In this document: positions 32,297 through 52,007 of the stretch, in pieces | How the letters are laid out: each line of letters opens with the position of its first letter | Position numbering within the stretch: the stretch's first letter is position 1 | From: Branchiostoma floridae | Lineage: Eukaryota > Chordata > Leptocardii > Amphioxiformes > Branchiostomatidae | Assembly (NCBI RefSeq): GCF_000003815.2 | Contig: NC_049984.1 | Location: 27,472,008-27,536,007, forward strand | Length of the DNA: 64,000 nucleotides | Direction of reading: 5' to 3' | Made by a program: the position numbers and the translations under genes | Notes under the pieces: generated by a model | Seen by the model: only the letters and a program-made list of their open reading frames with translations | What the model was told of the DNA's origin: nothing | Databases searched by the model: none

Positions 32297-32890
32297 CTAA
32301 CAAGGGATAAACCAACATAGACCAGGTTCACTCAACAATTTATGCATTACTGCAAGATTTTATATAGTGAACGATTATACCCATTTCAGGATTTCATGCA
32401 TAACACATTATGATAAAACTGCACTTCATTTATTGTTATTTTTTCAACAACAATGGAATTTTGTAGCTCACGTCTGAATCTTACCAGCAGCTTAGTCTGC
32501 GCATCCTAGACTGCGCAGGTGACGTATTGGATATTTAATGAGGTCAGTTGGCCATGCACCACCATGCGACATCTGGCAACATTGCAGGTCTAGAACTGCT
32601 ACCATCACTTCTAACCAATGATATACCAGGATTTCGATCACGTGGTTCCTTCATTTTGGAGAAGACGGCAGCTATTGTTCCTGGCTTTCTCGCGTTTCGG
32701 CCGAAATTTAGCGTTCATCGGGCCGCTGGAAGTGCCGCGTCAGCACAACTACGTGCAAGATCATGTGTAGAAGTAAAATCGAGATTTTTACATCAAACGG
32801 AGTTTTGATGCCGCTAAAAAGCACGGATATAGTTCGTCAAAGCTACCAAACGTCATCCTGTGGACAGCTCTGCAGCGTATGTTTTTTTTA

Positions 32891-33652
32891 NNNNNNNNNN
32901 NNNNNNNNNNNNNNNNNNNNNNNNNNNNNNNNNNNNNNNNNNNNNNNNNNNNNNNNNNNNNNNNNNNNNNNNNNNNNNNNNNNNNNNNNNNNNNNNNNNN
33001 NNNNNNNNNNNNNNNNNNNNNNNNNNNNNNNNNNNNNNNNNNNNNNNNNNNNNNNNNNNNNNNNNNNNNNNNNNNNNNNNNNNNNNNNNNNNNNNNNNNN
33101 NNNNNNNNNNNNNNNNNNNNNNNNNNNNNNNNNNNNNNNNNNNNNNNNNNNNNNNNNNNNNNNNNNNNNNNNNNNNNNNNNNNNNNNNNNNNNNNNNNNN
33201 NNNNNNNNNNNNNNNNNNNNNNNNNNNNNNNNNNNNNNNNNNNNNNNNNNNNNNNNNNNNNNNNNNNNNNNNNNNNNNNNNNNNNNNNNNNNNNNNNNNN
33301 NNNNNNNNNNNNNNNNNNNNNNNNNNNNNNNNNNNNNNNNNNNNNNNNNNNNNNNNNNNNNNNNNNNNNNNNNNNNNNNNNNNNNNNNNNNNNNNNNNNN
33401 NNNNNNNNNNNNNNNNNNNNNNNNNNNNNNNNNNNNNNNNNNNNNNNNNNNNNNNNNNNNNNNNNNNNNNNNNNNNNNNNNNNNNNNNNNNNNNNNNNNN
33501 NNNNNNNNNNNNNNNNNNNNNNNNNNNNNNNNNNNNNNNNNNNNNNNNNNNNNNNNNNNNNNNNNNNNNNNNNNNNNNNNNNNNNNNNNNNNNNNNNNNN
33601 NNNNNNNNNNNNNNNNNNNNNNNNNNNNNNNNNNNNNNNNNNNNNNNNNNNN
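32891..33652. other. Assembly gap (762 N)
   Basis: Run of 762 N, probably a sized gap. It lies just downstream of the 3' end of the RAG1-like gene, where a partner gene or terminal repeat could be hidden. Bases 33653-34140 show no gene. Confidence 0.95.
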
Positions 33653-34144
33653 ACCTATTGGTTCTCTGTTTTCTATATTTCCAAACAGATTACTCACTCC
33701 TGTGATTTCTCCCACAATATTGACATAATTTGTAACTTGTATACAGTCGTACTGATTGGCACTACATAATTTTTGTATACAGTAATGATGACCTGAAGTG
33801 ACAAGATCAGTCCATGACAGAAGACGACTCCTTCCTTGACTGAAGATGGTATGCAGGTAATACTGATTCACACTACATGCCGATTGACATTATACAGTAC
33901 ATAGTATACAGTAAATCACTGAATGAGTAATACTAATTCTAACTAACTAGTAATAACTAGTCTACATGCTGTCTGACATTGTATTGGTAGTAATTTGCAG
34001 TTCATGCAACATTTTTTCACGTGACTACAGGCAGGGGAGTTGACATTACATGTAGAACACTCCGAAGTACCTGCACTGTTTTTGTATCTTACTTTTTACT
34101 TGTGCATTTCTTGTGTATCATTGAAATGTAAGATCATGGGAAGC

Positions 34145-37100
34145 CTAGCCTATGGTGTTGGTTGGGCAGACCCCGATCAGATGGCTTGTGAGTGTTGACT
34201 TGAGTCGTGCCACAGGGTCGGGAATGGTACAGGTGGGTCTTGCCAGGGAGTTAAACAGTGCATGGACATGCTCAACTCCCTGCTCTGCCATGAACCCCAG
34301 CCCGAACCCCCACCTCCTGATGCAGGGAACCACATGATCTTCTAGCATGTGCATCTTTATTGGTACGGTGCCATTGGGGACATTGCTTCTGTAGTATGAC
34401 ATGAAGTCTTTGATGGCTTTGTCTGGAAAAGCAAATAAGAGTAAGCATAAATGAGTGTACGTTAAGAAGCGGGTTGTATTGACAACGTTGGTTAAGTAGA
34501 AGAATGTACTTAATATTCTAAGAAAATAGTTTGTACATGTACATACCTAGCTCACATACTGCAGTCTCCTCCATGGGACCTCCATGGGAGTAGAGCTTGT
34601 GACATCTTGCAAAACGACTGAACAGCTCCTTGTATGTCCCCGCCGTTGACGTCGCTCTGGGCACAAGGGATAGCGGCAGATCTGGAAACTTGTCCATGAT
34701 CTTGGTCACTGTACGTTCCACCATCCCTGTTAGTTCATCTATGGCATCATCCTGTGTATAAAAAAAGGAATAAGTCACAATAGACTCAATATTATACAAG
34801 GCACAAAGTCTGTGTGACCGACATAAACTCCCAAACTAAAAATAATAACTAGCTTAGTACTTGCCTGCAACATTCTGTTAACGTGGTTTCCATTGAAGGA
34901 GTTGCTGTGGAAGGCCTGCCTCTTCACACGGAGGGTCTGCAGGAGGTCATCCAGTTGGCTCGTTAAGGGTCCATCCCCCTTCTTTATGGACGCCTTCAGT
35001 CGCATTTCTTCTGCCTTAGACCTCTGCATGAATAAGTAGATGTATACAATGTAAGACATATCCCAATTATATAATCAAGTCACATTCATCCATATATATT
35101 GATCTTTAATAAATCTTGTTAAGAATATGTATGTGCCAACTTTGTACATGGTGAATTTACCAGTGAATCTTTCTGACGCACAAGCTCCTCTACCATGGAG
35201 CAAGCTTCTGCAAAGACAGCTTCATCTAACTTCTCTGTTGTTCCGTTGCAGCAGGCGAGCCAAGCCAGCTCATTTTCCTGGTCATGGAGCTCCTCCTCCA
35301 CGAGGTCAGCCTCGTCGTCCAGACCCCGGGCCTGTTCGATGGCCTGTACGTAGCACCTGAACTTTCCGAGGTGGACGTCGGCCAGCAGGGCCTCCTTGGA
35401 CACCTCCCCCTCGTGTAGCACTCCACACAGGTACGACTGCAGCTTTAGGTCAAGCTCATGCATATCTGTCTCCATTAGCTTGAAGGCACGAAGGTATAGC
35501 CCCAAGCTTATATGTAGACCAGGTATGATGACCTGTGAACAAATAGACAGATTTTGCCATAAGTTTAAACAATTATGTGGTGTTCCGCAAGTAAGCAATG
35601 GTCCATTTAGCAGTATTGTCAAATTGATACTTTTTTAATTAGTTTACCTGGTCTACTGGCAATGCGAACATCACGGGGGCGATCACATTGTGATGTTTTT
35701 TGGCTAATGACAACTTGCCATTAGCCTGCTCCATGAAGTCATGGTAGTGCTGCTGCAGGGTTGCCAAGGTTCTTGGTGGGATGCTTAGCCTCCGATCTTC
35801 TGACTCCGGGTTGTTCATTTCCATTTTGGTGATGTCACACCACAGGCATGGGTGGACAGCTGTGGTAAAAGTGTTAAAACAATTATTACATAGTATAACT
35901 ATATATCTTTATGAGAAATAAGTCATTAACATTTTTGAAGGCTCTGTTTTCAAGAAAGAAAGTGGAAAGGGCCCTTACCACTTGCTCCGGACAGCCCGTA
36001 CCAAAGGCACAGGAAGGCATAGTCTCCTGTGCCAAACACACGCATCGTATGCTCCTTGCCATCCTTGGCCCTGCAATGTGAATTTGAATCAGGTTCATTG
36101 GGAGGTGACATAAGAAAATGGTACAAAGTTAACACAGGTTTAGCTACTTGTCAAAGTAAGTACTAACTGGAAGCTCACCTCCACTTTGACCCTTGCAGAT
36201 CGCCCAGTTCCTGGGCATACCGGCCGATGGCAAGCATCAGATTTTCCCGGCTGTCCTTTGCCTCAAAAATGCTGAACACAGCGGTGTTCTGCCGGGAGTT
36301 TGGATGGTCCCTGTTGAGCAGCTGGAAGGTCAGTTTGAAGGAGCCTCCCCCGTGGTCTCCCCCGACCTTTACCCAGATCTCATCTTGGGGGATTTTCCCC
36401 CCATGCCATGTAAGGCACCTGTAGAAGATAGATAATTTCCTGTAAATCACTTTTACTTTTCAACCTAGACATATATAAGCAATAACATTCTTTTTATGTA
36501 CACAGGGTGACACCATAGCTGGTTGCCAGATCTTCTGTGTTGCACCAACTGTCAAATAGACTAAGGGTTAGATGAGATGAGACAAACATGCAAGCTGAGA
36601 AAATTAATGCTTTCTTACTCTGACTCCTGACACTTCTCCAGGTAGTCAAAGATGGCAGCGCCGACTGGGGAGATGTACGCACACGGAAGCAGTTGCACCT
36701 TCGTGGGGTCCGACCCATCTTTCTTCGCTCCCTTAACACAGAAAGGTAGGGTTTCGGCGTGCATGTCATATGCAGTAAGGCGCTCCCTGGCGGCCCTTCT
36801 CGTCAGTCGCTCACTCTCCATTGAGATGTTGTACATCTTAAGCCAGCTATAACAGAACAGACAACTCTGTTTAGACTATGTATACCAGTAAGGTTCTTTG
36901 TACAAGAATGTTGTAAATGTAACTTATGTTGTCTACAGAAAATGGTTTTCAATTTTACCTTCTGAGTTTCCCAAGTTGATTGTAGTTCAGTCCTATCTTT
37001 ACTTTTGCCTCCAGCTGGTGACCAGAAGGGATGACAACTTGATCGAACTTCAGCTGGTGCAGCATGCTCCTCAGCTCGTCCCGTGGCACCCTCCGCAGTT

Positions 37101-38684
37101 CCTCCCGGAGCAGCACTCCAGGATCCCCACCACTCACCCTGTCTCTCACCTCCTCCATAACCCTAGCCTTCTTTCGAACGGTAGAACGGGCTGCCTCTGC
37201 TGAGGACTTTCTGGGCTTGGGGACATGCATGAGACGTAGGGGCTAAAATTGAAAAAAGAGACACACATTTCATTATCTGTGGGAGGGGGGAAGGTGGGAG
37301 GGAAAGAGAGTTTTTGCAAACCAAGACAAAGAGGTAGGGCGGGTGGAGACAGAATCTATAGCTGCTCTTACCATAAATTCTTATTGTCATATTGTCTATC
37401 CGACTGCTGCCTACCCCTGTGACAGGGGTCCCAGCAGCAAAAATGGATACGACGATAAATGTAAAATGTCAATTAGAGAAAACTTATGATACATACCTGT
37501 CCTGGTGTTTTTGCCTCAACAATCCTCGGGTCACGGGAGAGAGATCTCATCCGACAATACATCGAATAAAAGGCATCCTGCTGGTCAGGTGTCAGGGGAC
37601 CTTTCTCACTTAGACCAACTGTTACCTTATCACTGGTAACAGATGTGGAAGGTTGGGCATCACGGGAGGAAGGAGGAGGACAGGTAGCAGGGGCAGGTGT
37701 AGTAGTCATGGTAGTGGAGGGAGGGGTTAACACTGTGCTAGGAGTGGAAGGAGGTACAGGTACATGTACGGGTGGTGGGATCACCTGAGTGTTAGTGTGA
37801 GGCACCATAAGGAGATATCTCCTTCCAGGTAGCAGAGGCGGTGTTGTGGTGTGAGAAGGAGCAGGCATTTGTGTTGTGTTTGTAGGACATTCATTATGAT
37901 ACTTAAGTTCATCCAGCCTCAGCTGTGCACAACAGTTTCTACAGTTAAAAATTAATTGAGCATAGCAGGACCTCCAGGTCCTGTGAACAGATGTCAGGTC
38001 ACTTGCTTTTATTTGTGCTTTGCATATAGCACAGTCAGCATTGTTATTTCCAGCTATCTGGAACAACTTATGTAAGCATTCAAAGCAAAACACATGAGCA
38101 CATAGTGCTTGCACGGGTAGGTATACAAAACACTGGCAAATACCACATTTGTATGCCTCCAAACTACAGATTGGTTTGAATCGATCCTCATCAAGAGGGA
38201 AGTCATCTAATGTGCTTAAGAGTTCAGAGAAAGTCTCTTCACTCATAGTTTTGGCACACTCTTCCACCTTTTCACCTTTCTCATTTTTGCCTTTCTCAGT
38301 TTTCTGAGTTTTTGGCCTACCTGGAGACTTCTTTTTTACTGGTCTCCCCCCTTTTGTCAGTGTTGCTACCTTCTCACAAGGAATGCAGGTTTTTCCATAC
38401 CAGTGAGGATACCATGACACTCGTGTTGGTAGCGTGTCAGATTTCCTGTACAGTTTGCACCTACACCTATGGCAAAAGGGTGGGGGATGTAGGTAAGACC
38501 TGTCCTTTTGGACATCTACCAACCACACTTCTTTAATCTTATCGGCAAACTCAACACATGAAAGCAGTTTGACTTGTTTTGCCCTGTCTTGGTTTGTCTG
38601 CACAAACTCGCCACAAAACCGGCAAAGCTTTGCAAGGTTTTTGATGTGTTCTTGTAGTTGTGAATCAGTGCTGCAGGCAGACAT
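34145..38684 (-). CDS. RAG1-like protein (N-terminal RING region plus RAG1-like DDE core), ten exons
   Basis: Exons: 38684-37497, 37242-36959, 36846-36619, 36418-36179, 36070-35979, 35859-35648, 35532-35161, 35023-34865, 34751-34547, 34422-34145. All phases agree and sum to 1,085 codons plus stop (human RAG1 has 1,043 residues). Every intron is GT-AG except intron 8 (CAG|GCAAGT, GC-AG). Exon 1 has the RAG1 N-terminal order: CRFCG near residue 20, HPPPFCHRC, WYPH...CIPC, basic GRPVKKK, a C3HC4 RING (CGICQCF...CAHVFCFECL...CAIC), then CRNCCAQLRLDELKYHNEC. A Pro/Thr-rich linker follows. The core shows IWVKVGGDHGGGSFKLTFQL, FEAKDSRENL (RAG1 LADESDHETL), CLWCDITK (RAG1 CTLCDATR), LPVDQVIIPGLHISLG, and HMLEDHVVP...GFMAEQGVEH (RAG1 HKTLAHVPE...WASEGNESGN), which keeps the CxxC/HxxxxH zinc site and terminal acidic motif. 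I infer a RAG1-superfamily transposase or domesticated relative. RSS binding, activity and expression are not shown. Confidence 0.85.
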
Positions 38685-40579
38685 TTTGTACAGTTGAGAA
38701 AAAAACTAGCAAGGTTCATGGACATCTACATCTGAAAATTGCAATACAGGTATATATTCACTATATGAATAGACAATATGAATTGTTTATCCAATGTACT
38801 ACTAGTATTGTTGTTTTGACAACATAATTTTAGTAGTGCAGCAAAGAGATGTCTCCTATTTTTCTCATCTATAAAGTATTCACATTATCAATTCTAGGAG
38901 ACAGTCTGTATTTTGTATCTATTGTATTATTGTTGTCACAAGAAAAGTTTAATAAGCATCAAAGAAATGTCTCCCTGTTGTTTTTTCTCTCAGCTCTTTG
39001 TAACATTCATTACATAAAGAACTCTGATGGTGGGGAGGGGGGCACATTCAGCGATATTTATCTACTTCAATACAACAACAATTTGATATGATCAGTCTCC
39101 TGAGTATTTTATTCAGGTAGAACAATTTTCTTAGGGATACAATTTAATTTAGAACAGTATAGAACGAAATACAAGACTCTACAGTAACTGATATTGTTCT
39201 AAATATGACCTACAGGTCGTGCACTCTTTGTCATTTTATCCGCTCGTAACACAAAGGAAAGAAAGCAAATGAAGAAAAGAAGCACGGATATTAGTAGTGG
39301 TAAGTATGAGATTGACAACAGATACAAAGATTACCGGTGGATAACTCCGGGAGAGGAGCAGTGCTCAGATGAAGAAGAGCAAAGTCAAGGGTATGATAAA
39401 AGTTTGCCCGGTGAAGCCCTATACCCGGAAGTGCGTGTCATGTCCCCGTATGTTTGTGATTAGAAATTATATATCCCCACAGGTCTCCTTTCATCAATGA
39501 GACCTTACAGGGCAGGATATAAACTCAAGTAAGACAACTTCTTTGAGGTTGATATGTGGTTTATTTGCTCAAAAACACCTTAGTTACGGCAAGTAAATAT
39601 TCAGTTGCTATGCCGGCACGTGGGCTGCCCGTGCCGGCGTAACACGATATGACCATATTTGGGAGTGCCTCGCGATGCCGCGCAGGCGCACACTAAGGGA
39701 GCAGGATGAGAACTTTAGGCGGTGACGTGAGCTGAACTTGGGATAATTTTTTCCTGTTTTTATGGGATCATTTTTTTCCTTTGTTTTTATCGTGGCAACT
39801 ATCATTGCTTGAGCTGAAATGAATTGTCTGATTCATGAATGAACAAAAACAGGTTAATCATGTGTGTCAAGTTGAAAGGCAATTAGAGAGAAACGGCGTC
39901 AATGCCAACATAACTGACCCACAATCCCCGGAAAAGTGCGGCTGCCAGCCGGCGACGGGGCCCCCAGTCCGGCCGGGTGGTGTTCGCCGAAGCTTCGTGG
40001 GCCATGTGCAGCAGCACGTGCCTGAGGCCAGCTGGCATTGTGAGTAACGTACGATTTGCTCTAAGGACACTGACGAAATATGGCAAAGCTCGTGCATGCT
40101 ATAGAAAATATTCAGATCTGCTTTACTTACTATCACTATCAGTTCTCTTAGCGTTCAGTATGACTAGAACCTACACTCTCTAGCCTCCTTCTCACACCAG
40201 CATTTACGTGGCGGTGGTGGTGGGTGTTGAGCGTTGATTCGCGATTTTCAAGACGACCGAAGAATCTCTTGCCATGGGAAATCGTTTTGCTGCCACTATC
40301 TCCCATGACCAAAGATTCTTCGCCCGTGTTGAATATAGCGAACCAGCGCCCCCTAAAAAATATTAAACGCCGGCGCTACAATAACAAGTCTGTGGAGGAC
40401 TACTACTTGAATACGTAAAAATACTACTACTTATTTTGCATCTTTTCACACACTAGATTTTTACCAGCACTATTCTGAGCGAGAACAGGGCAAACTTTTT
40501 TTTTTTTCAATTACAGATTGCACTGTCTTCAAACCAAATATGACACGTTCTGGTCGTCAAAATTGTACAATTTACATAC

Positions 40580-41060: not shown

Positions 41061-44000
41061 CTAATACCCTTTAAGGACTTCATGAACTTTAAACTCTCCT
41101 TGTCTTCTTTCTCGCATTTTGTGCCCCCCAAGTTTTGACCCTTTTTCCATCATTGAAGCAAGACAAACATATGGGTCTAATGACACTGTACTGCTGTCTG
41201 AGGGTAGCCATTGTTGGATGCTCTGGACCAAGCAAGTCGTCCTGCCTGCCACAATGGTAACAGACATCTTCGAATGAAATGAGCTTACTACTGTAATACT
41301 GTGCTTCAATGGGGGAAGCACAGTTCACAGCTCGTCTTACCACAATGCTGTCATGGTACCTACAGAAAAAAGAACACAAACGGTAAGCAGGCTACAGGAA
41401 CATCTTTTTTAATGAAAACAATGGTTTTACTCATTAAAGAAAAAAATGAAAGCAGTAGCAATAGAAACTGGTGAAAAATGACAAAAGGAGCTTTATTTCT
41501 TACCTGCCACCTTCTTCAAACAAGTTGCTTCCACATGTGAAGACCATGCTGTCCCTGACTCTTCCCACAGCTTCCTCCTCCTGCCTCTTCAGTTTAGAGT
41601 GACTGAATACACATCTCGGCTTCAGACACACTGCACACCTGTAGATTAAAAGACCAAAAAAGAACTTTGCTTTACAATATATCAACCAAGAATGTCATAG
41701 ACTTAATCACCAGGCAGCCCAGTGACTTGCTAAACTAAGGTGAAACACTGAGTAATGGGTACCCTGTCATGCCCAATTAGAAGGTCAATTAAAGCCTTTC
41801 ACTATCACATCTACCTGATAGCCATCCGGACCTTCCCAGCTACTAGTAGACCCCTCCTTTTCTTTTTTTTCCAATCATTCTTTATTACTTTTTGCAAAAC
41901 AAACAACAAAAAGAAAGCATGGCAGCTACAGATACGTTAAACAAAGCACATGTAAAACCACAAAATAAAAGCAAAAACCAGTAACAACAGTTAACGTTAG
42001 TCCTAAACCCCTTTGCCCATATTCATTCAACAATATCACTATACATTTGTTTAAGATATGGTGCTGACAGAAAATAAGTTATTTAAGTTTCCCCACTTCC
42101 CCCTGTGTTTAAGCAGTTTGCCTTGCCGAATTGCTATGTTTTTTTCTAATTTATAAAAGTATGAAACAAAGGATATGAAAGCAGACAGATTCAAAGAATG
42201 CTTACGATTTTTAAAAACAAATATTTTGCCTAAAAGGAGGATAAGATTCGACAGAACCGGGCAACGATCACTAGAAATACCGAACATTATACTGAGAGCA
42301 TTAATATGCAAATGAGTACCATTTATATTGAAAAACCATTCGTCCACCTGACGCCAAAAATTTGAAGTTACACAACAGTCCCCAAAAAGGTGGACGACTG
42401 TTTCTTCTTCCTCGTTACAGAGGTTACATAGTGGGGAGTCTATCAAACCCCGTAAATATAATATTTTATTGCAAGGTAAAAATTTGAATAATAGTTTATA
42501 TTGAAATATTCGAGTATATGAATCAATCGAAAGTTTATAAGGTAAACTATATATATTTTGCCATGGTAGTGGGGTGTCAAAATATTCTTCCCATGAAAGT
42601 TTAATTCTTTCAGATGAGCCCCATAGACTGGCTTCGTTCATGAAGAATTGATACAGACACTTATTAATATTACAGTTACGAAGCCAGCCTATGTTTCTAC
42701 ATACAGGAAGACAGACACCCAAACTTGGAGAATTCAATTTCAGCTTAGCCTTCCAAAAAGGGGGAATAGCAGACATAAGTTGATTATATTTGAATTCAGG
42801 ACACACTACTCCAAATTTTGTAACAAAATCAACATATGATAAGAAGCTGTTTTCTGCGTCTAACATGTCGTTTACAAATATGACCCCCCTACTTAGAAAT
42901 ACCTGTGAAAAGAAAGGCTTACCACTGATAGTTATATTTGAATTTAGATGCAGAAGCTGCTGCTTCACCTCAACCGCCTCCTCAGGTGGCCTAAGTTGGT
43001 ACTTCAACCATGCCTGTATAACATGGGTAAAGAATGTACTTAAAGGGGATATTTTACCTAAAAGAGATTCAAAATCCTTTTTGTTAAGTTGCGCAAAGGG
43101 AAACAAGTCAGTACGAAAGATGGAATTTGATAAAAGAATTAGCTTTGAGCAAAACCATTCCTTATTTAAATATAGTTTGGGTAGCCAAGAAGCTTTTAAA
43201 GTAAAATCTACGGCCCGCAAGTTTCTTAATTTCAGGCCTCCCTGATCAAGAACGGCGTACAAAGTTTTTCTTTTAACCCTCTCAGGTCCATCTCCCCATA
43301 GAAATTTACATATTTTTTTCTCATATCGATCAAAGAAGTCAGAGGGAGGTGTCGGGAGGGAAGTTAATAGAAAAATAAATTGTGGGACGATTAAAGTATT
43401 AACCAAGATAATTTTTCCCATAAGGGTTAAGGATTTAGATTTCCATAACATTAGAATCTTGTCTATTTTTTCGAATTTTCTATCAAAATTACTATGAACA
43501 ATGTCGGACATATGTCTCGGAATATGAATTCCAAGAATGTCAACGGGGCCATCTGTCCAAAGTATTGGGAAAGAACAAGGTAAGTAGAAGTTTGTACCGC
43601 TTAAAGATCCAATCCGTAATATTCTACATTTATCAAAATTTGAGCGTAAACCAGATAGAAGGTTAAAAATCTCCAAATACTTAACCAACGCGTATAGAGA
43701 GCCAAGTTGAGATGTAATTCCAAAAGTGTCTAAACCTTTGATTTCTATATTATTTCTAATTTTACTAGCAAGCAATTCAACTCCTAATATAAAAAGATAC
43801 GGAGATAAAGGACAACCTTGTCGGACCCCACGGGACAGGTTAAAGGGCTTGGAAATATAACCATAATTAATAATTTTACTAGAGATGTCACTATAAAGAA
43901 TTTTAATCCATGTTATAAAAGAGTCTCCAAAACCAAAATATCTAAGTGCTTTAACAATAAATTCTACTCTGATGGTGTCGAAGGCTTTTTCGAAGTCTGC

Positions 44001-47000
44001 CAGGAAAATTAAACCAGGTAATTTGTTTTTCTCATAATATTCCATAATTTCTAAAATTCTCCGTATGTTATCGCTAATACATCGCCCCTGCAGGAAACCA
44101 GTTTGATCATAAGATATTAAATTTGAGATAACATTTTTTATGCGAAGGGCGAGGCATTTGGATAACACACGTGTATCACAGTTAAGGAGGGTAATAGGGC
44201 GCCAATTCTTTATATATGAAGGGTCTTTGTCCTGTCCCGATGGGTCTTGTTTAAGTAACAAAGAGATCAAACCTTCTTTTTGAGTACCAGTTAACTGTTT
44301 TTCACTGAAAGAAAAATTAAAACACTCAAGCATAGGCTGCTTTAAACAATTAAAGAAAACTTTATAAAATTCTACTGAAAGGCCGTCAAGACCAGGACCT
44401 TTCCCCCAGGGGAAAGAGTTAATTGCATCCTTCAGTTCCCCCTCAGTAATCAGACCCTCACACCCCCCACGCTGCTCAGGAGACAAAGACACACGATTAG
44501 ATGTCGGGAAAAAGGGTTCAAAAACATCGTCGTCCACCGACATGGGCGGCTCCTCAAATGAATAAAGGTTTTGATAGAAATTAGCTTGCTCCTCAAGAAC
44601 ATGCAGCGGATTAGTTTTAACCTGACCATCTGTCGTTACAAATCTAAACATATTCTTCCTGGCCTTATCCCTAGTAACTAAATTCATAAAAAATTTCTCC
44701 CCTTGCTCCATCCACTTGGCTCTCCTACTGGCAATCATATTATTAGATTTTATTTGATACAAAATTTCTAAATCATGTTTCTTTTCTTGTAACTTATCAA
44801 AAGTTGTTGAATTTGGAACAGAGTCTAACTCTACTTGTAGTCTACAGATTTCATTAACTAGAGAATTTTCCGCTTTTTTACGTTGTTTGTATTTCCAAGA
44901 AGAGTATTTAATGATGTGTCCACGAACACAACATTTAAAAGAGTCCCAGACAATATGAGGATTTGCAGAACCCTTATTACAAAGGAAAAAATATTTTATG
45001 AAGTCTGAGGTTTCTCTAACAAATACTGGATCACTTAACAAATCTTGGTTAAGTCGCCAGAAACCTTGACCCCTGGGTATTGGTGAGGTGATAAGTGAAA
45101 TTCCAATAAGGGAATGATCAGATCTAAAACTATCTTCTATCTTAACGTATTGTACGGAAGACACTAGAGAGAAAGATATTAAAAAGTAATCAATGCGGCT
45201 GGCCTGAAAACGACGTCTCCAAGTGTATCTCCTTTCGTTAGCATTCTTATGTCTATAAATGTCTATTAAATCAAGATTTGCACAAAAAGAGTTAATTGCC
45301 TGAAGACATTTAGGATGGTAGCTAGAAAATCGATGCCCGGTTCTGTCCATGTCTGAATTTAAAACAGTATTAAAGTCTCCTACAGCAATAAAGGATGATC
45401 CAGGATCTATGCAACTTTGTAAAGTAGTTTCCAAATTTGTAAAAATAGAAGGGTCGTCCGAATTAGGGCCATAAATATTGATTATGCAGAAACGTGTAGA
45501 CTCTAACGAAACATCCAACAAAATCCACCGACCGGAGTTGTCACTCAAGGTCTGATGGACAGTATAGGAAATATTTGCCTTAAATAAGATCATTACACCT
45601 CTGCTGTTGCTTAAACCATGATTGAAGAAAATGTCTCCCCCCCATTCGGACCGCCATTCTGTTTCCACTGCTTGTGTGGAGTGGGTCTCTTGTAAACAAT
45701 ACATTTTGTAAGATTTGTCTTTTAACCAAGTAAAAACTTCATTTCGCTTCCTGCGGTCTCCCAGTCCATTGCAATTGTAACTACAGATTTCTACCTTAGG
45801 CTGTGTCATGAAATAGGTACATGAATAGTAAATGTTTTATAAAGATCAAAAAAGGAGTGGAGTCCGCAGGAAGCAAGAATTAAAGTTTGACAACAATGCG
45901 AAATATTTATATTGTATCTACTGGGCAATGAGGGTTTTTCATAGTTAACAGTACTGTAAAGAACACATTTGCATTTGAGAAAACAGGAACATAGAAAAAC
46001 ATGCCATGCACATAACCAAACATGCTCTAAAAAAGCACGCATATTTCTACTACAAAGCAACTCAAACAATGGTCGACTAATCCTTAAATAGTTTCACAAA
46101 CATCAAAATTTACTTTACTGTACCAGTGTTTATTTGTTGGTATGCAGAAAAAAAAAGACGATACTATCTCAGCAAAAAGATCCTACAAAAAGAAAAAATA
46201 AGCTGGCATTTCCTCTCAACATAAAATAAGAATAATAAAAATAAAAATAAAAATAAAACATGTCTAAGGAGTTGCCATTAATAACACATCTGTTTTTGCC
46301 ATACTACGAATGAGAAATACACAACTGACTTTTCATTCAGAGGAAAAAGCAACTACCTGGTACTTTTGAAACTACATTGTATATTATATACATACATTTT
46401 TTAAACTTTAGCATATCAATGACTTTAGTCTTACACTATTTAAACATTTCCGCATACAAAACAATCCAATAACAGCAACAAGAGAGAAAAGAAAATAGGA
46501 ACTAAGGTATAATTAATCAAGTCATCTATCTTGTTGCTAAAATGCGGAAAAAGAAGGAGAGCAAAAAAAAGGAACAAAAACTAAGGGAGAAGTCATGCGG
46601 ATTCAGCCTCCATCCTACTCGGAGGAAACAACAACAGCAACCAAAGGTCTCAACATTTTCTCCCATGTGAAAAAACACCGGATTAATTACAAACTGATTA
46701 CATTCACCCGTGTCTATCAGACTCAGAACGCAAAGCGGGGAAAAATCAACCGGAGATAGAACAAAAATCAGGGACAGTCCATCTCTTGAGCCAAAGGTCC
46801 GAAAACATTAGTTTTTTTCACGTCCGGCTGTTGTTCTGGAGACCTGGAAGCTTGGCGTTTAGCGAAGGTCTTCCTTCGCTGTACCACAAACTCCCCCGTT
46901 GTGTCGCCTGCCACGCCCTGCTGCAGGTCCTCCTGGCATGTCAACAACACCCGGCGATCCCCACGTGTCGCCCAGATTCTTCCCTCGATCGTTACCCAAA

Positions 47001-50000
47001 CAGCTGACAGGGGATTGTTATCACCTCCATTAGTAATCAGCTGTTTTGCTTGGTGGAAAAGCGCCCTACTAGCTGGTGACAAATCGGGACGAATAGAGAT
47101 GAAAGAACCTTCGCCGTTCTTCTTCCCTTTGAGAGCCTTTCTTTCCTCATAGACCTTCCTTTTGGCTAAGAAAGTTGCGAACTTAACTATGAGGTGTCGG
47201 TTTTTCCCTTTTCCGCCCAAATAGTGGATGTTGTCAATTTCCCCCGGCAAAATGTTCACCTGTAGATACTCCTTGACAAATTCAACGAATTTGTTTGGGA
47301 GGTCTTTCTGATCGTAAGTGTCTGGGAAGCCCCAAACACGTAAACAGTTCTTCCTAGAATACTGCTCGCTATGGAACTGGCGTGCTTCCAGTGATTCGAT
47401 CTTCCCCTGGAGATTCTTTATCAGTTCATCTTGAGATTTGATTTTTTCTTCGTGACAACAGAGAATATCCCCCATCTTTTTCATGTCGTTTTTCATTTCG
47501 TCGAAATTCCCGTTCAGTTTGGTGAAGTTTGTTGCGTTTTCAGCTTTGAGTTCATCTAATTTTATCAATAGAGCCTCCATGTTTACTATCGTTCAGTTTA
47601 TAGAGGAGTGAGAATAATAAATCAAGTACTCACGACCATTGACGTTGCACTGTACTACTGGTTTAGAACATGTTTTAAACAATTAGTTGTCCGGTCACGG
47701 CAAACCTAGATCTTGAATGTTGATGCGCCAAAACTTAAATGTTGTCTCGTGCGCCACCTGGTCAGCCACAGTAATTGCGAGAGGGTGGGGGGTCGCTCTG
47801 AAACAGACAAATAGCAAACCCGGCAGCAAAACTGTGTCCAAAAAGGAATGGACAAGAGATGATGTAGTGGTAATATAACTGTAACAGGTCCAAAATCTGA
47901 AAAGAAACTTACCGGCGGGGGCTCCAAAAATGGAGCCCGCTGCGGTCAAATCGCTTGCTAGGACCTAGTCTGGAGTAGTCTGCACAATGGCCCTCCCCAT
48001 TCGATCCTTCGAGGGCAAATTTTGTCAGCAAAATGAGTTCTTCTCTGGCAAAAAAGGGTCGTAGAAGATGGAATAGACACTCATCTGCAACACTTCACCT
48101 CGATTGACGATCGATGGCAAACAAAAAGTACTTAAAAACTGAAGTTTGCAACCCCCAATATGGGAGAGCCTTTCAACCGTGACCGGACCTGGAAGCGCCC
48201 TCTTGCGTTCTCCTTTTCTTGTCAGTCTCATCCTTTTCACTTAGGACTTTTTAGTGATGGCCTGTCCTCTTCAGTTGTGCAGCTCCCATACACTTCAGCA
48301 AACTTCCTGTGTAAAAACAAAACAAAAATACTGTTTATGTTTTCCCCCTCATTTTAGATTATCTTCCTGAATTTGAAAATTTGAACACATGCAAATATTC
48401 TAATCTATCAAAAAGACCAAAATTACCAACAGGGTACAACACCTGACTTTTTGTTAAGGTCACTGTGACATGGGAGACAAAATTCAAGTTACTCACTTGT
48501 AATGCTCTCTGGAAACATCCAAGGTTGGATCTGGTAGGAAGGAGACGGTCTCAAATACATCCGCTGGAAGTCGTGGTGGACATAGGTTGCAGACAAAGCA
48601 GCCTGGCTCAGTGCACTTCTTGACTTGAAATGTGTAGTGTGTTTGCTTTGTATGATTCTTCAGAAAGTCAGACAACTTTGCATACTTTGCCAAGTCCTTT
48701 GCTTGCATTGACATTGCACTGTTGGCTGTCAGATCACTGTCAATGATAGACAGGACATTCATGATTTCTTCAATCTGTTCATCTGATGCTGCTTCATGTG
48801 TCTCAATCCTCTCTCCCTTCAACTGCATTCTTCTGAATCTTTCATTGACTAGCTCTTTCACGGGTTGTAGTGAAGTGTTGAAAGCTTGCTGGAAACCAGG
48901 GCACGTCTGAGCTTCCTGTCGTACACTTGTCAGATTAGACTTTCCCTTCACCCTTGCCTCAAACTGATTGTCCATCTTCTCCCTTGCAAGGGAAACATTC
49001 TGAAGGGCAAGATTGAGGACTGACATGACTCTTTCCGCTGGGTTTAACCAGCTCCCATTTGGTGCACATCTAGCAGCGATCAACACATCAAGGTCCAAAG
49101 CGATAAACAGTGCAATGTATGACAGCTTGACGGTTAGATATGTAACTCTATGGTCAGGACCCCCATCTGTGTAAATCAACAGTATTGGACTGTCTAGGTT
49201 GACGTCATCTGAGCTTGCAACTGAGCGCAGTATGTTACATACTTCAGTTGCATGCCTCCCGGGGGTTGAAGGTTGAAACACCTTCTCTTTTGTCGTCACA
49301 AATACCCGTCCCCTGTGGAAGGATCCATCAATTGTTTCAGGGACTTGGTTGAGCAAGACAACTGAAGGGATCAATCCAGCAACATGCCAGTCATGGTCAA
49401 GGGCAACCAATGGAGTTCCCACTGGAACTAATGACTTGTTGTGTCCTCGGACCCCGCTTGATACAGGATGCCCTGGCTCTCCTAACGGAACTATGGCTTT
49501 GTCGTCCAGACAGATCATTTTTGCATGCTCTCTGTACTTGCATGCAAACTCCTTCATGTATTTGAATTGGGTTGAGGCATATTTTGAATCCTCATGTTCC
49601 ACCCTGAGTACTCTTGACTGGACTGCATACTTGACATCAAACCTAAAGGTGTGCCTCACAGCTCTGTTAGTAAAAGGGTTGGTAGGCCAGAACTGTAGCC
49701 TTATCCACTCAACAGAAGGAATGGCTGACCCTGGTGGCATCCTTGCTTCAACTTTCCTTTGCAGGTCTTCAACAGATATCACAAAAGGTAAGTACATGTA
49801 TTCTTGTACATGTCTTCTTGCATCTACTTGACACTCTTCTAGTAGTTTAGCAGTTTCTTGCCAAAACTGTTCGAAGATTGTGCTCCCTGGGTTGCCATTG
49901 CACTTCCGAAGGTCACACAAAATATCAGCTTCCTCTGTCTCCAAGAAGAACTGTTTGACCCTATCATCTATCAGTTCTTGGTCATAGCTTTCTGCTGCTG

Positions 50001-51285
50001 CAGAGTCTTGTGTAAGATTTTTTTAGATTGCCCTGATGAGCATGGGTTGGAGATTAGCTTTATTACTATATCTGGAAATAAAACATCGCCTCATCTCCCT
50101 TGTTGAGTACTGCGGTAATCGTTTCGTTACATTCATAATTACCGCAGCGTTCCGGGATTCGTGGTCATGTCTTTCCCTGTCCACCCTCCACAGAAGGGTC
50201 ACTGTTCCCAGATAATTGCCATATGGCATTGTGTATATTGAAACATCATGAGTCACTTCCAGATGTGTGATAAACTTTCTTCTTTGAAACCTGTCTACTG
50301 GAGCAAATTCTGATATGTTAATGGGATGGTAAGTAGGGCTGTTGTCTAGGCATTCCATCAGAGCCTTGTACTCCCTGTTGCATTTACTGGAGGCAAGCAG
50401 AGTCTTGCCCTCTGCAGCATTCGCAGGATTTCGCACTGGTGTTGTTGAGGCCTTGGTTTGTGAAACCCGCACACAAGACTGTTGTAGGTAAGTCCTATAC
50501 TGCACTATTGCTTCACACAAACTAGACACATCCTTTACAAACTTCTTATTCCTGCTAGACTGAACAACTGGTAGCAAAAGCAAGGTTGAGAGCTTTTCAA
50601 TGTGACTGCTCAGTGTTTCTTTAGTAAGACTGGGCTCCGAATGTCTATTTTCCTTCCATCTGTGACGCCCTTGGAAACCTTGAAATGTCAAGGGGATGGC
50701 AATTCCCCTTGCTTTGAATTTCTCATGGTGGGCATCAAGATACCATAGACAATCCCTTAGTTGACTAGCTACACGTGTGCCTACATGTATGTCATCCTTA
50801 GTGAATCCTGCCTCTACAGTGTCCATATAGTCAATAACATCATTCAATAACTGCTCTGTGGCAATCGACTTTTCTTTATCCTTCTTTGGAGGTAGGTGGG
50901 AGTCATCCCTCCGTGCACTCATTAGAACATCAAAGGCACTTTTCTCGTTTCCACTGCTGGACGACTTCTCTTGTTCTGCTTGTACATTGTATGTTATATG
51001 CCTACAGTTGAAAGTTATGGCAACACTTACTGGATGGTGGAGGTCAACTTTAGTACCACTACAGTCTTTGCTGTCTTGTTGGCTGATATAGACATGGGTG
51101 TTTTGAGATCTGAGTGAGCTGTAGTTGTCATTACTATTAGGATCTGATGATGTAGGCAAACTTTTTGTGAAAATATCTCCAAAAGTTTCATCTCCCTTGA
51201 CCAGCTGTACCACATCAGATATTTTGTTGCTTCCATGGTAAATTTTGACCATTACAAAATGTGTGTGCACGTGTACTGGCTCCAT
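41061..51285 (-). CDS. DDE transposase-like gene with C-terminal zinc region, split by a LINE; one in-frame stop
   Basis: Exon 1, 51285-48497, is 929 codons in one frame, broken by a TAA at 50025-50023 (codon 421). Its C-terminal half has a DDE-like layout: CLDDKAIVPLG near codon 594, LLIYTDGGPDHRVTYL near 707, and GSWLNPAERVMSVLNLALQ near 751. The next exon (from 48306) joins in phase and reads KFAEVYGSCTTEEDRPSLK. After a probable frame break near 48245 it reads RLSHIGGCKLQ to about 48140. After the LINE come exon 41638-41504 (CAVCLKPRCVFSHSKLKRQ...FTCGSNLFEEGG) and last exon 41359-41061 (YHDSIVVRRAVNCASPIEAQ...CYHCG...PICLSCFNDGKRVKTWG). This composite is known to me only as uncharacterised invertebrate proteins. 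DDE assignment is from motif order. Stop plus frame break suggest a pseudogene, unless they are sequence errors. Confidence 0.7.
42051..45809 (-). CDS. LINE ORF2: endonuclease and reverse transcriptase, RT active-site box deleted
   Basis: The protein has 1,252 residues and no stops. The N-terminal APE-type endonuclease shows YNCNGLGD, LQETHS, NIYGPNSDD, VGDFN, DYFLIS and SDHSLIG, the full metal and catalytic set. The RT follows: NWRPITLLNCD, DQTGFLQGRCISDNIR, LADFEKAFDTI (first catalytic Asp) and RGVRQGCPLSPYLFILGVEL. After IKGLDTFGITSQ the sequence jumps straight to LGSLYALVKYLEIFNLLSGL, so the YADD box that should lie between is missing, an in-frame loss of perhaps 12-20 codons near 43705. 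The C-terminus has the LCNLCNEEEETVVHLFGDCC knuckle (C-x2-C-x7-H-x4-C). It nicks DNA and would prime reverse transcription, but RT should be dead here. Confidence 0.9.
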   Translation of the reverse strand: MTQPKVEICSYNCNGLGDRRKRNEVFTWLKDKSYKMYCLQETHSTQAVETEWRSEWGGDIFFNHGLSNSRGVMILFKANISYTVHQTLSDNSGRWILLDVSLESTRFCIINIYGPNSDDPSIFTNLETTLQSCIDPGSSFIAVGDFNTVLNSDMDRTGHRFSSYHPKCLQAINSFCANLDLIDIYRHKNANERRYTWRRRFQASRIDYFLISFSLVSSVQYVKIEDSFRSDHSLIGISLITSPIPRGQGFWRLNQDLLSDPVFVRETSDFIKYFFLCNKGSANPHIVWDSFKCCVRGHIIKYSSWKYKQRKKAENSLVNEICRLQVELDSVPNSTTFDKLQEKKHDLEILYQIKSNNMIASRRAKWMEQGEKFFMNLVTRDKARKNMFRFVTTDGQVKTNPLHVLEEQANFYQNLYSFEEPPMSVDDDVFEPFFPTSNRVSLSPEQRGGCEGLITEGELKDAINSFPWGKGPGLDGLSVEFYKVFFNCLKQPMLECFNFSFSEKQLTGTQKEGLISLLLKQDPSGQDKDPSYIKNWRPITLLNCDTRVLSKCLALRIKNVISNLISYDQTGFLQGRCISDNIRRILEIMEYYEKNKLPGLIFLADFEKAFDTIRVEFIVKALRYFGFGDSFITWIKILYSDISSKIINYGYISKPFNLSRGVRQGCPLSPYLFILGVELLASKIRNNIEIKGLDTFGITSQLGSLYALVKYLEIFNLLSGLRSNFDKCRILRIGSLSGTNFYLPCSFPILWTDGPVDILGIHIPRHMSDIVHSNFDRKFEKIDKILMLWKSKSLTLMGKIILVNTLIVPQFIFLLTSLPTPPSDFFDRYEKKICKFLWGDGPERVKRKTLYAVLDQGGLKLRNLRAVDFTLKASWLPKLYLNKEWFCSKLILLSNSIFRTDLFPFAQLNKKDFESLLGKISPLSTFFTHVIQAWLKYQLRPPEEAVEVKQQLLHLNSNITISGKPFFSQVFLSRGVIFVNDMLDAENSFLSYVDFVTKFGVVCPEFKYNQLMSAIPPFWKAKLKLNSPSLGVCLPVCRNIGWLRNCNINKCLYQFFMNEASLWGSSERIKLSWEEYFDTPLPWQNIYSLPYKLSIDSYTRIFQYKLLFKFLPCNKILYLRGLIDSPLCNLCNEEEETVVHLFGDCCVTSNFWRQVDEWFFNINGTHLHINALSIMFGISSDRCPVLSNLILLLGKIFVFKNRKHSLNLSAFISFVSYFYKLEKNIAIRQGKLLKHRGKWGNLNNLFSVSTIS
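46768..47580 (-). CDS. LINE ORF1 protein (L1 ORF1p-like, coiled coil plus RRM)
   Basis: The protein has 270 residues. Residues about 1-65 form a coiled coil (KLDELKAENATNFTKLNGNF, later LQGKIESLEARQFHSEQYSR). Then comes the RRM/Transposase_22-like region: NCLRVWGFPDTYDQKDLPNK, VNILPGEIDNIHYLGGKGKN, HLIVKFATFLAKRKVYEERK, and a C-terminal domain with ISIRPDLSPASRALFHQAKQ. L1-type ORF1 proteins trimerise and coat the element RNA. It lies upstream of ORF2 on the same strand with about 960 bp between. Confidence 0.85.
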   Translation of the reverse strand: MEALLIKLDELKAENATNFTKLNGNFDEMKNDMKKMGDILCCHEEKIKSQDELIKNLQGKIESLEARQFHSEQYSRKNCLRVWGFPDTYDQKDLPNKFVEFVKEYLQVNILPGEIDNIHYLGGKGKNRHLIVKFATFLAKRKVYEERKALKGKKNGEGSFISIRPDLSPASRALFHQAKQLITNGGDNNPLSAVWVTIEGRIWATRGDRRVLLTCQEDLQQGVAGDTTGEFVVQRRKTFAKRQASRSPEQQPDVKKTNVFGPLAQEMDCP

Positions 51286-52007
51286 GCTTCATCTGTTTGA
51301 AAGAAAAAAAAAATTGATTTAGTATATTGATAATTGATAAAATTTTTTGTACACAGGCAAAGTATGTTGTAAAAATAAACGAGTTCTACTTGGGTTATTT
51401 ACTAATTTACCAATTAAATACACGAAAGTCACATGAAGAGACAGGTTGAATACATCACAGATCGATTACAATCCAGTTTCAGTTTCAGAATCTACTGCCA
51501 TCCTTTGTGATAAAGGCTCAGGGAGGCCTTCTTACGTAGCATCCATGCTGTTGAAAGGGTTGATAGCCTCTTTTGAGTTCCATTTTAGGTTATTTTTGTA
51601 AGTTAGACGAGATTTTAACATCCAAAATCCAGAGTTTCAAATCCGCCCCCCACCCACCTCAGTGCTGTACGGAAGATCTTGGTGACTCCACTTCTACTTC
51701 TACCTATACACAGTTGAAATAGATATTCTTTCCACACAATACAAACTCTCTCAATGATATTCATTGTCACAAATAACTTTTAAGGGACTAAATTTACTTA
51801 CCTAGTACAAAGTTTTTCGGCATCGCAAAAAACTTCTTGTAAACTTGCTTGAATTTGCCTCTGTAGAATAATGGTGTGTGGTTGGCTAACTTGCATCATG
51901 TGACCATTGCATGTAGACGCCACCTGTTAACATTTGCTTGAACTGCAGCAAATTTCACTAAACATTGCCTGCTTTTGAGCCAGCTCTGTTGCGGGTCATT
52001 TTTAAGT

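Follow-up and report, generated by a model that had tools for sequence, protein, structure and literature searches.

The Chapaev group of DNA transposons has been identified in lancelet and sea anemone, and in two of its subgroups a Chapa region is followed by a RING finger (Kapitonov and Jurka 2007, cited in PMC4411706). Its hallmarks are CAC/GTG ends and target duplications of 3-4 base pairs (bp) (PMC4079192), its transposase is a DDE enzyme in which a C(2)C and an H(3-4)H pair separate the second D from the E (PMC12730594), and the domain DUF1280 has been equated with it (PMC3985635). These and the other published systems are described here from passages of the papers cited. The subject of this report is a gene and the element around it in a 64,000-base stretch of lancelet (Branchiostoma floridae) DNA, contig NC_049984.1, positions 27,472,008 to 27,536,007, referred to as the window. 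The gene very probably encodes the transposase of a Chapaev DNA transposon that looks autonomous, and the element, judged from its sequence, is an ordinary but complete, once recently mobile Chapaev.

Three related systems share parts of this organization. ProtoRAG and other RAG-like elements combine a RAG1-type N-terminus and core with bipartite asymmetric ends, but have 5-bp duplications, a RAG2-like partner (PMC7204232, PMC8289069) and the C-terminal motif Cx2Cx3GHx4C (PMC7204232). Transib elements (HzTransib) also have 5-bp duplications, together with mostly symmetric ends and no RAG1 N-terminus (PMC8289069, PMC4411706). The signal spacers are 23 and 12 in vertebrates and 27/31 in ProtoRAG, most Transibs being symmetric (PMC8289069). 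N-RAG-TP, a transposable element of the sea slug Aplysia, carries a RAG1-type N-terminal region and is described as consisting of that part entirely (PMC8355894), whereas the window has such a region as exon 1 of a complete Chapaev. The window element agrees with the described Chapaevs in having CAC/GTG ends in all three copies compared, 4-bp duplications, DUF1280, the C(2)C and H(3-4)H pairs, and PF12560 (Chapa) followed by a RING, both in exon 1. New relative to the passages compared, which are separate from the Repbase entries, are the locus, its exact borders and a subterminal box with spacers of 26 and 16.

Borders, target duplications and copies

The DNA beyond the gene start matches two further contigs, and all matches end within one base of the same point. 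The element ends (CACGTC / GACGTG) were set by comparing the window with the C9 copy (L015 2241-9203; stretches 95-99% identical) and with the decayed C10 copy (L016 4076-9445; 76-88%). The target duplications of the three copies, AGCT, TTTT and ATTA, are 4 bp long and perfect in each case, and a repeat at C6:26.89 Mb supplies the empty site, joining both flanks of the window insertion at one AGCT. In a second family (L018/L019) the ends read CACGGC and the duplications TAAC and GTTA, and the empty site of the L018 insertion is found in L016. Two more families, L017 (duplication GGGG) and L020 (TCGT, with one hexamer mismatch), were found by a scan for 4-bp duplications adjoining matching CAC ends. 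The copies with their own duplications are evidence of past movement only.

Chapaev core exons occur in at least 29 separate places of the genome (hand count of 79 rows; 65 of 114 candidates scored). C6 holds 12 of these, mostly in its last 8 Mb (about 19.8-28.0 Mb). No open frame longer than 84 residues is present in window positions 38707-39729. Within the C9 copy, which has no gaps, the gene-3' side shows no open frame of more than 90 residues beside the transposase, a result that short exons could escape and that included no Kelch search.

The transposase and its relation to RAG1

The gene runs on the minus strand from 38684 to 34145. The first-pass annotation had proposed ten phase-consistent, stop-free exons encoding 1,085 residues, and this model held (phases 0,0,2,2,2,1,0,0,0,1; zero internal stops). 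The acceptor is AG in all nine introns and the donor is GT in eight; intron 8 is of the GC-AG type in a good donor context (CAG|gcaagt). In the C9 copy the splice sites are the same and 1,087 residues can be read without a stop, and 21 of the 22 core relatives listed carry DUF1280; the model is therefore beyond chance. The motifs quoted earlier, including HISLG and EQGVE, are present in the protein, while the terminal acidic box also claimed is not, the last 60 residues holding 3 D/E versus 8 K/R/H.

Between the window and C9 copies, 18 synonymous and 15 non-synonymous codon differences were counted (synonymous rate dS 0.025, non-synonymous rate dN 0.006), and divergence was similar in coding (33/3,258) and non-coding (25/2,783) parts. 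The resulting dN/dS of about 0.24 would suit a host gene domesticated from a Chapaev and no longer mobile, as would the observations that only two intact copies of the family were seen, the window's being one, and that the C-terminal tail of the relatives is lost. We nevertheless regard domestication as highly improbable: the ends are intact, the 4-bp duplications perfect, the empty site is at hand, and a whole-element copy with its own duplication lies elsewhere.

Exon 1 of this Chapaev transposase carries the Chapa region, the RING and a C2HC finger. The eight Cys/His of the Chapa region are conserved in all six aligned sequences. All eight ligands of the RING and all four of the C2HC finger are intact in the window, in the C15 (L017) and C19 (L020) families and in B. 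lanceolatum P0064; P0066 lacks one ligand of each finger and P0009 has lost nearly all of them. The N-terminal query matched 22 places in the genome, those on C15 and C19 being open frames 54% and 53% identical to it. When a profile was built from three RING-bearing sequences with no RAG1 row, RAG1 was the top match (1.1e-11), because the match spans Chapa, RING and finger. With the RING alone, UHRF1, BRCA1, RNF168 and TRAF6 scored about equal to or above RAG1, and in a fold search with the low-confidence N-terminal model (predicted local distance difference test score 57.0) the TRAF and RNF125 RINGs came ahead of the RAG1 dimerisation domain (rank 11). The tie to RAG1 thus lies in the order of parts and not in the RING by itself. 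That this N-terminus is ancestral, a question on which the first-pass annotation touched, was already argued in print in 2015, in a passage by which Chapaev, Transib and the RAG line descend from an ancestor whose core was already joined to Chapa and RING (PMC4411706).

Could exon 1 be a gene of its own? In B. lanceolatum, P0064 is an exon-1 protein modelled alone and named 'RAG1-like'. P0008 has the same exon-1 tail joined to a core in one model, and P0009, P0013, P0016 and P0019 each hold PF12560 and DUF1280 within single models. These united sequences speak against a separate gene.

Chapa regions were also seen apart from a Chapaev core. In P0065 (LOC118415185) PF12560 is the only domain, and at G000:C5:7237784-7238206 lies a Chapa region 51% identical, with no core-exon match on C5 among the 65 of 114 candidates scored. 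These are possibly a captured or domesticated Chapa domain, in what may be one gene or two. A further Chapa-like stretch (G000:C3:33690647-33691024, 44% identical) lies inside an open frame of 2,713 codons.

For the core, DUF1280 scored 46.4 bits against a cut-off of 25, and of the core relatives listed, at least 22, the domain is carried by 21 of 22. The alignments covered the window protein with 21 of the 22 relatives (A1), 19 of 22 (A2; P0008, P0012 and P0022 left out), 12 of 22 (A4), 9 of 40 RAG1 relatives (A3) and three sequences (A6). The profile search and structure prediction proposed in the first-pass annotation gave RAG1 as the sole significant match of the family profile in the PDB and as the best fold match of the predicted core. 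The DDE triad (D588, D663, E1044) and the zinc ligands (C682-x2-C685, H1018-x4-H1023) were located in this RAG1-like model and are likewise predicted. Compared with vertebrate RAG1, the core is barely alignable, the acidic tail is missing, and the RAG1 signals have 12/23 spacing and another sequence.

The earlier assignment to the RAG1 superfamily therefore stands for the RAG1-type N-terminus, the RING and the diverged core with its fold and profile matches, but not for membership of Transib/RAG proper. Such membership, in a RAG-like (ProtoRAG/TransibSU) element or a Transib, would account for the fold, the N-terminus and the order of parts. It is scarcely credible given 4-bp rather than 5-bp duplications, the presence of DUF1280, the absence of a C-terminal Cx2Cx3GHx4C motif (Cys-Cys-Gly-His-Cys) from the protein sequence, and a gapless C9 copy in which no partner frame was seen within the limits given above. 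Nor is the gene an unplaced separate branch, as had been suggested: it is a Chapaev transposase with DUF1280, the cargo of a transposon with ends and target duplications.

Several points weigh against the Chapaev transposase as described. The element is interrupted by a run of N (32891-33652). The stop codon comes about 9-14 residues earlier than in the lancelet relatives P0002-P0006 and P0009-P0011, so the basic C-terminal tail found there is missing; the stop of P0001 is at the window protein's position. Public models of the gene omit the exon 1 RING: P0067 (LOC118418271, 445 residues) retains only 28 exon-1 residues and P0001 (a lancelet hybrid, 685 residues) none. Homology of the core to RAG1 is weak by sequence alone (hhalign probability 3.6%, E 0.012), and the Pfam domain search found no PF12940 match in the protein, an absence that also speaks against a RAG-like or Transib element.

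One protein from another sea slug, P0021 of Elysia marginata, carries DUF1280 and is named amine oxidase. Its domain content points to a possibly misnamed Chapaev transposase, and it led us to suspect that Aplysia N-RAG-TP may be a fragment of an element of this kind.

Subterminal boxes at two spacings

A box, CTTAGTSTGCGC, marks both ends of the window family: it starts at offset 32 of the gene-5' end and at offset 22 of the gene-3' end, which gives spacers of 26 and 16. The box was defined on this family and then scored in the other three. At offset 32 it was matched at 11, 10 and 11 of 12 positions in L018, L017 and L020 (P 5e-5, 3.5e-4 and 1e-4), and at offset 22 at 7, 8 and 11 of 12 (P 0.059, 0.016 and 1e-4). 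The gene-5' box is present in all four families; the two-spacing pattern is clear in two. A consensus-free test returned, for the window element and L020, best common 12-mers at a shift between the two ends of exactly 10 (P 0.003 each; C10 copy 0.007).

It is fairly probable that these boxes are ordinary subterminal repeats or reflect shared ancestry, their 26/16 spacing having no mechanistic meaning. Under the same consensus-free test neither L018 nor L017 shares the box between its own two ends (P 0.39 and 0.64), and their gene-3' ends hold no box of at least 9/12 within the first 400 bases. The window family has a second, partial box (10/12) at offset 36 of its gene-3' end. The families are related, hence the offsets are not independent, and the related CACTA elements have subterminal repeats. 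Against this account stand the recurrence of the offset-32 box in three families not used to define it and the exact shift of 10 in two. Within the first 400 bases of the ends, direct boxes of at least 10/12 lie at 32 or 22, apart from the one per copy at offset 36. Across 168,053 bases (12 stretches), CACNNC with a box of at least 10/12 occurred seven times at offset 32 (four families) and four times at offset 22 (two families), versus ten matches at other offsets, nine of them inside these same ends and one elsewhere. Genome-wide, the longer box followed by GNNGTG within 8-38 bases had four occurrences, all at ends of these elements (reversed control 0), in two of which the GNNGTG found sits 5 bases inside the true end. 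CACGTC followed by TTAGTSTGCGC within 10-30 bases had six, namely both ends of three copies (control 0).

A more tentative proposal, which we hold to be on the doubtful side, is that Chapaev has 12/23-like ends, in each of which the CAC hexamer at the terminus is followed by a conserved box, across spacers of 26 (gene-5') and 16 (gene-3') that differ by one helical turn, and which are read by a RAG1-type core with a nonamer-binding-like region. The likeness to 12/23 signals is our own parallel, and any functional role is putative. No description of spaced boxes in Chapaev was found in the literature compared on Chapaev/Transib ends, a scope that excludes Repbase reports and most subscription papers; a box whose two spacings differ by roughly one turn of DNA may be new.

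The L018 end contains another motif. At about base 68-80 of its gene-5' end (L018 from 1538), CCAAGATGGCGGC includes, in reverse complement, the TR5 box of ProtoRAG, GCCATCTTG, as given in the passages compared. The motif is also a frequent one in promoters (YY1 site).

Features of the window and a possible mechanism

The coordinates are collected in the table.

Features of the Chapaev element, in window positions
Feature	Position	Strand	Remarks
Whole Chapaev element	32469..39729	- (gene strand)	7,261 bp, including 762-base N run 32891-33652; ends common to 3 copies
Target duplication AGCT, low side	32465..32468	.	Paralogous empty site has single AGCT
Target duplication AGCT, high side	39730..39733	.	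Border comparison
Terminal CACGTC, gene-3' end	32469..32474	+	Border comparison
Terminal CACGTC, gene-5' end	39724..39729	-	Border comparison
Subterminal box CTTAGTCTGCGC	32491..32502	+	Gene-3' end, offset 22 (spacer 16)
Subterminal box CTTAGTGTGCGC	39686..39697	-	Gene-5' end, offset 32 (spacer 26)
Exon 1	37497..38684	-	Residues 1-396: Chapa region, RING, C2HC finger, proline-rich linker
RAG1-type N-terminal zinc (Chapa) region	38262..38663	-	Residues 8-141; PF12560 E 1.4e-6; profile match to RAG1
RING finger C3HC4	38022..38147	-	Residues 180-221; PF00097 19 bits, below cut-off 21
C2HC finger	37887..37943	-	Residues 248-266
Exon 2	36959..37242	-	Core start; lines up with RAG1 nonamer-binding domain, suggestive only
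Exon 3	36619..36846	-	Gene model
Exon 4	36179..36418	-	Predicted first catalytic Asp D588 (VGGDHGG)
Exon 5	35979..36070	-	Predicted second catalytic Asp D663 (GTGDYAF)
Exon 6	35648..35859	-	Predicted zinc ligands C682, C685 (PCLWC)
Exon 7	35161..35532	-	H755 (GLHISLG)
Exon 8	34865..35023	-	Its intron begins with GC
Exon 9	34547..34751	-	Gene model
Exon 10	34145..34422	-	Predicted zinc ligands H1018, H1023; catalytic E1044 (AEQGVE); ends at stop codon

Two other regions of the window hold long frames on the minus strand. Positions 42054-45836 contain a 1,261-codon frame of a non-LTR (long terminal repeat) retrotransposon with endonuclease, reverse transcriptase and zf-RVT domains. The adjacent frames of 509 and 421 codons at 48496-51288, with no Pfam match above cut-off, are probably another mobile element.

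The following course of transposition is proposed for the Chapaev. Transposase molecules would bind both element ends and cut next to the CAC at each, and the excised element would be joined to a staggered 4-bp target, giving the duplication. The Chapa region would bind zinc, and the RING may serve in dimerisation or as an E3 ligase, by analogy with RAG1. Each end probably offers the transposase a second contact in its subterminal box, at offset 22 or 32, possibly for the region matching the RAG1 nonamer-binding domain.

These elements bear on how V(D)J recombination gained the RAG1 N-terminus and the 12/23 rule, for which complete Chapaev elements of lancelets, whose single gene combines Chapa, RING and core, offer test material. 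If the proposal of 12/23-like ends is true, paired asymmetric signals, no less than the RAG1 N-terminus, would be older than the divergence of Chapaev from Transib/RAG, or would have arisen twice. Should the two ends, with their spacers of 26 and 16, function as a pair, the logic that orders antibody-gene assembly would already be present in an enzyme from outside the Transib/RAG branch.
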